Source of the DNA: Streptomyces sp. SID13031
GTDB taxonomy: Bacteria > Actinomycetota > Actinomycetes > Propionibacteriales > Kribbellaceae
DNA: 64,000 nt
Direction of reading: 5' to 3'
NCBI RefSeq assembly: GCF_010548305.1
Contig: NZ_JAAGLV010000010.1
Coordinates: 62,001 to 126,000, forward strand
The notes under the pieces are model-generated. The model was not told where the DNA came from and did no database searches. It saw only the letters and a program-made list of their open reading frames with translations. Below are positions 24,445 to 26,324 of the stretch, piece after piece (position 1 is the stretch's first letter; each line of letters opens with the position of its first letter). The translations under genes were made by a program, and so were the position numbers.

Positions 24445-25053
24445 ATGGCCCGTTACACCGGACCCATGACCAAGAAGTCGCGCCGTCTCGGGGTCGACCT
24501 CGTCGGTGGCGACAAGGCGTTCGAGCGTCGTCCGTACCCGCCGGGTATGCACGGCCGCGGCCGTCCCAAGGAGAGCGAGTACCTGCTCCAGCTTCGTGAG
24601 AAGCAGAAGGCTCGTTACGCCTACGGCGTGCTCGAGAAGCAGTTCAGCCTGTACTACAAGGAGGCCTCGCGCCGTCCTGGTAAGACCGGTGACAACCTGC
24701 TGATCATCCTCGAGTCCCGCCTCGACAACGTCGTGTACCGGTCCGGCCTGGCCCGGACCCGTCGTCAGGCGCGTCAGCTCGTCGTCCACGGTCACTTCAC
24801 CGTGAACGGCATCAAGGTGAACATCCCGTCGTACCGCGTTTCGGCGCACGACGTGATCGACGTCCGGCCGAAGTCGGTCGAGATGACGCCGTTCATCATC
24901 GCCAGGGAGGCCCACTCCGAGCGAGTGGTCCCGGCCTGGCTCGAGGCGCTGCCCGAGCGGCTGCGGATCCTCGTGCACCAGCTGCCCACCCGGGCACAGA
25001 TCGACACCCAGGTCGCCGAGCACCTGATCGTCGAGCTCTACTCGAAGAACTAG
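24445..25053 (+). CDS. rpsD: 30S ribosomal protein S4
   Basis: 202 residues. MARYTGPMTKKSRRLGVDLV, GMHGRGRPKESEY and the S4 RNA-binding domain (RLDNVVYRSGLARTRRQARQLVVHGHFTVNG, from about residue 92) are clear. It lacks the N-terminal zinc cysteines of the C+ type. S4 is a 16S assembly initiator and in E. coli represses the alpha operon. Confidence 0.98.
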   Translation: MARYTGPMTKKSRRLGVDLVGGDKAFERRPYPPGMHGRGRPKESEYLLQLREKQKARYAYGVLEKQFSLYYKEASRRPGKTGDNLLIILESRLDNVVYRSGLARTRRQARQLVVHGHFTVNGIKVNIPSYRVSAHDVIDVRPKSVEMTPFIIAREAHSERVVPAWLEALPERLRILVHQLPTRAQIDTQVAEHLIVELYSKN

Positions 25054-25059
25054 CACCAC

Positions 25060-25103
25060 CTGGGTTTACCCGGGCTGGGTTTACCCCCGGGCTGGGTTTA
25101 CCC
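25060..25103. repeat. Three direct copies of CTGGGTTTACCC
   Basis: Copies start at 25060, 25075 and 25092 and are separated by 3 and 5 GC-rich bases. Each contains the near-palindrome GGGT-TT-ACCC. They directly follow the rpsD stop and abut the long inverted repeat. Confidence 0.8.
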
Positions 25104-25219
25104 CCAACCTGACTCATCATCGGTCCCTTGTGTCCCTCATGCTGCTTCCCATTTCGGGAGGCGAACCGTGGAGAGCACGACTCAAGAGGGACACAAGGGA
25201 CCGATGATGAGTCGGTTGG
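25104..25219. repeat. Long inverted repeat between rpsD and rpoA
   Basis: Arms 25111-25138 and 25186-25213 are perfect 28-bp complements; allowing one bulged base (T25110) the pairing extends by 6 bp to 25104 and 25219. The 47-nt loop is 25139-25185. As RNA it would form a stable stem within the alpha operon transcript. It could be an attenuator, an RNA-processing site or a small palindromic element inserted in the operon. Confidence 0.85.
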
Positions 25220-25298
25220 TGGTAGGGGTGAGTTCTTAGAGCGTTTTGTTCGCGGCCTCAAATAGTGGTCGTCGCGAGTTTGATTGGAAGGAAACACA

Positions 25299-26324
25299 GT
25301 GCTTATCGCACAGCGTCCCACCCTGGCCGAAGAGGTCGTCGACGAGTTCCGCTCGCGGTTCGTGATCGAGCCGCTCGAGCCGGGCTTCGGCTACACCCTG
25401 GGCAACTCCATCCGTCGCACCCTGCTGTCGTCCATCCCGGGTGCCGCGATCACCAGCATCAAGGTCGACGGCGTACTGCACGAGTTCTCCACCGTCCCCG
25501 GGGTGAAGGAAGACGCCACCCAGATGATCCTGAACCTCAAGGATCTGGTCGTCTCCTCCGAGCACGACGAGCCCGTCACCATGTACCTGCGCAAGCAGGG
25601 CCCCGGTGACGTGACCGCCGCCGACATCGCGCCGCCGGCCGGTGTCGAGGTGCACAACCCGGACCTGAAGATCGCCACCCTGAACGAGAAGGGCCGGCTC
25701 GAGATGGAGCTGGTCGTCGAGCGGGGCCGCGGTTACGTCTCCGCCGTCCAGAACAAGAACGCCGACGCCGAGATCGGCCGGATCCCGGTCGACTCGATCT
25801 ACTCGCCGGTCCTCAAGGTCACCTACAAGGTCGAGGCGACCCGGGTCGAGCAGCGCACCGACTTCGACCGTCTCGTCGTGGACGTCGAGACCAAGCAGTC
25901 GATCCTGCCCCGTGACGCCGTGGCGTCCGCCGGTAAGACCCTGGTCGAGCTGTTCGGCCTGGCCCGTGAGCTGAACGTCGAGGCCGAGGGCATCGACATC
26001 GGCCCGTCGCCGGTCGACGAGCAGATGGCGGCCGACCTGGCCCTGCCGGTCGAAGACCTGCAGCTGACCGTCCGGTCGTACAACTGCCTCAAGCGTGAGG
26101 GCATCCACACCGTGGGTGAACTGATCTCGCGCAGCGAGCAGGACCTGCTGGACATCCGTAACTTCGGCTCCAAGTCGATCGACGAGGTCAAGCTGAAGCT
26201 GGCCGAGATGGGCCTGTCGCTGAAGGACTCGCCCCCCGGCTTCGACCTGCGCGCCGCCGCTGAGGCGTATGGCGACGACGCCGAGGACGAGGACGAAAGC
26301 TTCGCCGAGACCGAGCAGTACTGA
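25299..26324 (+). CDS. rpoA: RNA polymerase alpha subunit
   Basis: 341 residues. The GTG at 25299 ([13 protein letters not shown]) has GGAAGGA 6 nt upstream. The N-terminal domain shows the assembly motif [20 protein letters not shown]; the C-terminal domain has [14 protein letters not shown] and [13 protein letters not shown], the DNA-contact residues. An acidic tail ([14 protein letters not shown]) ends it. The long inverted repeat lies just upstream. Confidence 0.98.

Follow-up and report, generated by a model that had tools for sequence, protein, structure and literature searches.

Palindromic repeats of bacterial genomes are usually linked to RAYT transposases and to stems that are imperfect and shorter than those described here. 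REPINs are doublets of REP sequences that form hairpins (PMC3116915), while REP families keep a GTAG motif in over 90% of their members (PMC3733652). The GTAG and CGTC repeats of the latter paper have short stems, mostly of 6–9 bp, in which G-T pairing is often seen; the word “actino” is absent from this text. Template switching between the arms, as described in two other papers, homogenises inverted repeats and inverts their spacers (PMC8604942, PMC8794818). In the titles and abstract openings of the literature on palindromic or dispersed repeats in Kribbella and other actinobacteria, with subscription journals mostly outside the search, the families reported below are undescribed.

The DNA stretch of 64,000 nucleotides that was analysed (hereafter, the window) is part of contig C9 in the draft genome G000 (8.5 Mb) of a soil actinobacterium of the genus Kribbella. 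It carries a long hairpin, which is a small, near-perfect palindromic repeat; some related species have their own versions, two of them at about a hundred copies.

The palindrome between rpsD and rpoA

The element is located between two genes on the + strand which we take to be rpsD (24445–25053; an ORF of 202 amino acids) and rpoA (25299–26324; GTG start), names that come from the initial annotation and from the sequences themselves. The left arm (25111–25138) is the perfect complement of the right arm (25186–25213), both of 28 bp, and they flank a 47-nt loop (25139–25185) that differs from copy to copy. The stem continues outwards: the outer left arm (25104–25110) consists of CCAACC (25104–25109) and a bulged T at 25110, and the outer right arm (25214–25233) reads GGTTGGTGGTAGGGGTGAGT, of which GGTTGG (25214–25219) pairs with CCAACC, adding six pairs beyond the one bulged T to give 34 bp in total. 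Outside the left arm, three CTGGGTTTACCC units (25060–25071, 25075–25086 and 25092–25103) span 25060–25103. The initial annotation had reported these three direct repeats in the rpsD–rpoA gap together with an inverted repeat of 28 perfect base pairs, or 34 with a bulge, around a 47-nt loop, and we recovered the whole arrangement as it had been described. The CTGGGTTTACCC triplet is a local expansion peculiar to the window copy: one CTGGGTTTACCC-like unit is extant at the equivalent site in Kribbella catacumbae (G007), and the triplet is absent from the other eight copies in the host genome.

The window element folds beyond chance. The RNA fold of 25040–25240 has a predicted energy of −129.5 kcal/mol, whereas shuffled versions average −73.2 and none of 200 reaches so low a value (z = −12.0). 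The element folded alone yields a z-score of about −11.8 on either strand, while the longest other perfect stem in the window (scanned with loops of up to 110 nt) measures 16 bp. An Rfam search over 24900–25400 returned nothing above the gathering cut-off and five sub-threshold families (four miRNA and one snoRNA), and identity with an Rfam RNA is rejected for want of a gathering-level match. Closely upstream of rpoA, at 25252–25276, there is a conserved imperfect palindrome, GCGGCCTCAAATAGTGGTCGTCGCG, which has no Rfam match either; the sequence AAATAGTGGTCGTCGCG occurs in all 29 Kribbella gaps read by script, including that of the host genome.

Comparison of the rpsD–rpoA gap among relatives, a check proposed in the initial annotation, separates two genomes from the rest. 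We matched rpsD in all 38 Kribbella genomes and read the gap in 30 of them: the host, K. catacumbae and 28 others. The palindrome is present in the first two, and each of the 28 others has a short, ordinary hairpin at that spot (27 read by script, G008 by eye). The 27 script-read gaps measure 100–109 nt and contain a GC-rich hairpin region past the stop codon, with a longest uninterrupted stem of 8–14 bp (just 6 bp in G005). The gap is 245 nt long in the host and 203 nt in K. catacumbae; there, the ordinary hairpin is gone and the palindrome is found in its place. The element has probably moved in, replacing the ordinary rpsD–rpoA hairpin.

K. catacumbae has one copy of the window type, located at the equivalent rpsD–rpoA site, and the outer-arm sequence GGTTGGTGGTA is common to this copy and the window element alone amongst the ten copies aligned. 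As they share both the site and the outer arm, the two copies appear to derive from one ancestral copy. The loops give a divided picture on this point: a gapped alignment finds the same base at 25 of 31 aligned positions, but the overall loop identity (23/45) is no higher than that between unrelated copies (21–25/45). None of the 56 arm positions has changed between the two copies, versus 32 of the 310 four-fold sites of rpsD and rpoA (10%). The probability of seeing no arm change is 0.002, or 0.05 when the arms are counted once; such conservation is moderately improbable by chance and suggestive only.

A stem of 28–34 bp, as predicted by the fold of the transcript, could serve as a putative RNase III site, where cleavage of double-stranded RNA between rpsD and rpoA would give the two messages different lifetimes. 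All 28 of the other Kribbella gaps examined use a short hairpin in this place, which speaks against such a role, as does the fact that several copies of the element do not lie between genes of one operon, and we deem it most improbable.

Dispersed copies and related families

With BLAST of the unit and an arm pattern scan allowing up to three mismatches, we identified nine copies in the host genome, one of them being the window element; the proposal of the initial annotation was to fall if there were no copies elsewhere and no change of RNA coverage across the element, and eight copies do exist elsewhere. All 18 arms carry GACTCATCATCGGTCCCTTRT without mismatch and each has a partner, the arm starts being 68–82 nt apart; no solo arms were found in this genome at up to three mismatches. 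The elements are about 90–130 bp long and contain no gene. Over the nine host copies and the one in K. catacumbae, the perfect stems measure 28–38 bp and the loops 19–47 nt, and the conserved 19 bp of the arms fall into three main types, in each case with a matching partner arm. The loops of two copies (L011 and L015) run in the reverse direction relative to their kin, which fits either insertion in both orientations or inversion of the spacer. A covariance model yielded a weak match in the host genome at C113:163923–164071 (E = 2.4e-5). Other long perfect palindromes, unlike the window element, occur in a 464-kb sample of the same genome (L121, 12173–12271; L107, 17987–18075; L113, 11497–11596), and the L113 type was also seen by eye in K. 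catacumbae (L084).

At the eight other host sites, the relatives compared (two to six per site) do not have the element; 35 of the 40 stretches fetched could be aligned, and the genomes were the seven nearest by rpsD identity plus a choice by match. G030 and K. catacumbae have a clean short gap where the host has L013, and so does G028 where the host has L012. In G030, the gaps orthologous to those of L015 and L010 (L083 and L093) harbour by eye a different repeat-like sequence, TTGTGCTCCACCTGAG, as if different repeats had refilled equivalent gaps.

The exact arms occur in two of the 38 Kribbella genomes, the host included. Amongst 84,980 species (host genome excluded), the exact arm was found in K. 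catacumbae and as one unpaired match in an Uhrbacteria MAG; the latter is at chance level, about two matches being expected by our estimate for 19 bases in 257 Gb. Phage and plasmid records gave no match and viral contigs no exact arm, for which reason a phage or plasmid origin is rejected. Nine of the 38 Kribbella genomes gave matches at E 0.01 to a covariance model built from the ten copies. True relatives exist in four of these, G000, G007 (CTGATCATTCGCCCCCTTTTCACCCTC type), G030 and G031, the last with several weak matches; the single weak matches in G004, G011, G022, G023 and G024 (E 2e-4 to 4e-3) were judged by eye and not counted as members. A model of 18 members run over 245 genomes of the order retrieved G000, G007, G008, G018, G030 and G031, along with one unrelated hairpin, in a scan that scored 16 candidates per genome under stricter filters and is therefore likely to have missed some. 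The match in G172, from another genus (E = 1.4e-5), was read by eye and is not counted as a member.

Related families with other arm sequences are present in five Kribbella genomes; K. catacumbae has about 85 copies and G031 about 130. A single-arm scan found K. catacumbae-type arms 90 times forward and 80 times reverse in K. catacumbae itself, seven times in G030, three times in G018, twice in G008 and not at all in the host genome. In G031, a further type with TTCATTCGTCGGAATCCGCCCTC arms (examples: L129, 15782–15883; L131, 10543–10638; L135, 13035–13142) amounts to 131 + 128 arms, with none in the other 37 Kribbella genomes. Two loci of G031 (L053 and L059) are by eye nested palindromes, one lying within the arms of another that is built from TTCATCGGTCCCTTGTGAC repeats; the outer type with its TTCATCGGTCCCTTGTGAC units stands on its own at L170 (by eye).

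All nine host copies are intergenic (five between co-directional, two between convergent and two between divergent genes; automatic calls, hand-corrected at the window site and at L010), and seven of them are located 13–88 nt past the nearest stop codon. The 25 K. catacumbae copies of that species’ own type comprise 10 convergent, nine co-directional and six divergent locations according to uncorrected automatic calls. The 40 nt to the left of the stem are rich in C (0.49) and the 40 nt to the right in G (0.55), so that C-rich sequence comes ahead of the stem in both reading directions.

The family could instead be a strong bidirectional terminator or 3′-end hairpin that multiplied because it was useful, the stem being kept by RNA selection acting in two directions and mobility being minor. 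The short distances to stop codons and the C-rich flanks agree with it, as do the ordinary hairpins which relatives have after rpsD and which some of them show by eye at the L009, L011 and L016 sites. A stable hairpin does follow the gene, but the T run of an intrinsic terminator is missing directly after the stem, where the sequence is GTGGTAGGGGTGAGTTC; a terminator scan found none either, albeit with loops limited to 8 nt, the loop of the element being 47 nt. Moreover, the divergent copies follow no gene in two of nine cases in the host (six of 25 in K. catacumbae, by the uncorrected calls), and one arm sequence shared by nine unlinked sites demands copying between sites regardless. We hold this explanation to be rather unlikely. 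The regulated attenuator put forward in the initial annotation is affected likewise: the ordinary hairpin at this spot in 28 of 28 gaps speaks for it, while the lack of a T run and the two copies that are downstream of no gene speak against it, which leaves attenuation as a possible present role of the window copy.

Symmetry of the arms

Arm types vary between copies and between species, yet agree within a copy. In the ten copies of the window type, 289 of 290 arm cells form Watson–Crick pairs and none is G-U; at eight positions both sides are altered and never just one of them, and the ninth variable position holds the sole mismatch. For the wider set, we aligned 18 members, most of them chosen for their long stems: seven of the window type, six of the 25 from K. 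catacumbae, two from G030 and three from G031. In this selected set, both sides have changed at 25 of 32 stem pairs, 96.9% of 575 cells pair (eight of the 557 paired cells being G-U) and the covariation score is 0.693 versus a shuffled mean of 0.194. When the partner is slid by one to three columns, the score falls to at most 0.121. Five measures were compared with 500 shuffles; the number of further pair types was equalled by five shuffles and the other measures by none.

A second view comes from single arms in K. catacumbae, taken from the best 100 arms listed for all genomes together and ordered by mismatches. Of the 61 K. catacumbae places listed, 39 show both arms and 22 a single one. In 36 of these 39 pairs, the two arms carry the identical variant, against a mean of 11.3 and a maximum of 22 in shuffles. 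The latter figure depends less on the choice of members than the 18-member alignment does, although both lean upward because the 18 members were chosen and the 39 pairs stem from the best-matching places listed. Exact arm symmetry and few G-U pairs suggest that the arms are kept alike at the level of DNA; covariation with scarce G-U would also fit selection on hairpins that are read from both strands.

Two other readings of the arms were dropped. The idea that the outer stems are relics of an older terminator is unsupported, since a degenerate C-rich consensus is common to the outer arms. An attC (integron) site was set aside by eye, because the ends that an attC motif requires are not conserved.

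Probable mobility and relation to described repeats

The element is dispersed, patchily distributed, absent from equivalent sites in relatives and expanded in particular lineages, all of which indicates movement or copying. Amongst the options offered in the initial annotation, the evidence favours a small mobile palindromic element, with nine dispersed intergenic copies, a patchy distribution and element-free equivalent sites in relatives; that part of the earlier interpretation is supported, while attenuation may be a role that the window copy plays today. We put at roughly 0.6 the probability that the window harbours a small non-autonomous mobile palindromic repeat, whose arms are kept alike by template switching and which displaced and functionally replaced the hairpin after rpsD. 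Two mirror-copy arms of about 30 bp with a conserved core, flanking a variable loop, would be spread by some enzyme or replication process working on the arms, and mismatches between arms would be erased through template switching during replication. In the alpha operon, the element would have ousted the ordinary hairpin after rpsD and, judged by its position, may now stand in for it, in 3′-end formation or in tuning how much transcription from rpsD reads through into rpoA. Its movement, the agent that mobilises it and its function are what we infer.

The Y1 family (PF01797), the transposase family that we searched for, has no member in the host genome and one in the 38 Kribbella genomes, in G008 (L217). 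There, the sole Y1 transposase adjoins a TnpB-like ORF and by appearance belongs to an IS200/IS605 element; arms of this kind are absent from the 3.3-kb locus. A more sweeping proposal is a superfamily of palindromic DNA replicators which would spread and stay symmetric by hairpin-templated copying at replication forks without a dedicated transposase, new arms taking over lineage by lineage and copies ousting ordinary terminators, including that of the alpha operon; we consider it decidedly unlikely in this full form.

Like MITEs, the window element is short, gene-free, dispersed in multiple copies and bounded by terminal inverted repeats around a variable interior, and it might be a classical MITE, in which case an ordinary DDE transposase would recognise the arms as terminal inverted repeats and move it. 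A recurrent target-site duplication is lacking, however: no flank repeat is common to three or more of the nine host copies, and the best result for K. catacumbae is three of 25 copies at one offset. Nor was a longer, autonomous element with the same ends seen, either for the window arm type, amongst the 100 of 170 K. catacumbae-type arms listed or amongst the places listed for the G031 type. We consider a classical MITE very unlikely.

The GTAG- and CGTC-tagged repeats, as presented in PMC3733652, are likewise dispersed intergenic palindromes, with subfamilies distinguished by complementary stem changes, and the CGTC repeats too are without a dedicated transposase. In contrast, the Kribbella stems measure 28–38 bp in the ten copies and G-U pairs are nearly absent. 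Hairpins subject to template switching, as described in PMC8794818 and PMC8604942, would explain both the homogenisation of the arms without G-U intermediates and the inversion of spacers; this is a mechanism of maintenance rather than a repeat family, and alone it does not explain dispersal.

In this actinobacterial genus, there are lineage-specific families of long perfect palindromes whose arms differ by species and stay complementary, the RAYT-type enzyme not having been found. Such families make template switching testable as a maintainer, and even as a spreader, of repeats. At the window site, a selfish-looking repeat between the essential genes rpsD and rpoA occupies the place of a hairpin that every one of the other 28 Kribbella gaps examined retains.

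Membership in the REPINs themselves is rejected, as the host genome contains no Y1 (RAYT) transposase and the arms do not have the tag: GTAG/CTAC occurs in none of the 10 conserved arm pairs. The stems differ too, being perfect over about 30 bp, with no solo arms at up to three mismatches, and one of 38 Kribbella genomes has a Y1 transposase at all. In six of the nine host copies, one or both flanks carry GTAG 7–9 nt away from the core (both flanks in one of nine, and neither in the K. catacumbae copy), which makes a distant tie to REP-like repeats possible. With the RAYT transposase not found and the tag not conserved, we class the family as REPIN-like, not REPIN. Two conserved arms in inverted orientation, forming a hairpin around a variable spacer, are nonetheless what REPINs consist of, and in PMC3116915 these are gene-free, intergenic units of about 70–130 bp with compensatory changes on both sides of the stem. 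Of the systems described, REPINs are the closest to the Kribbella family in build and life-style.
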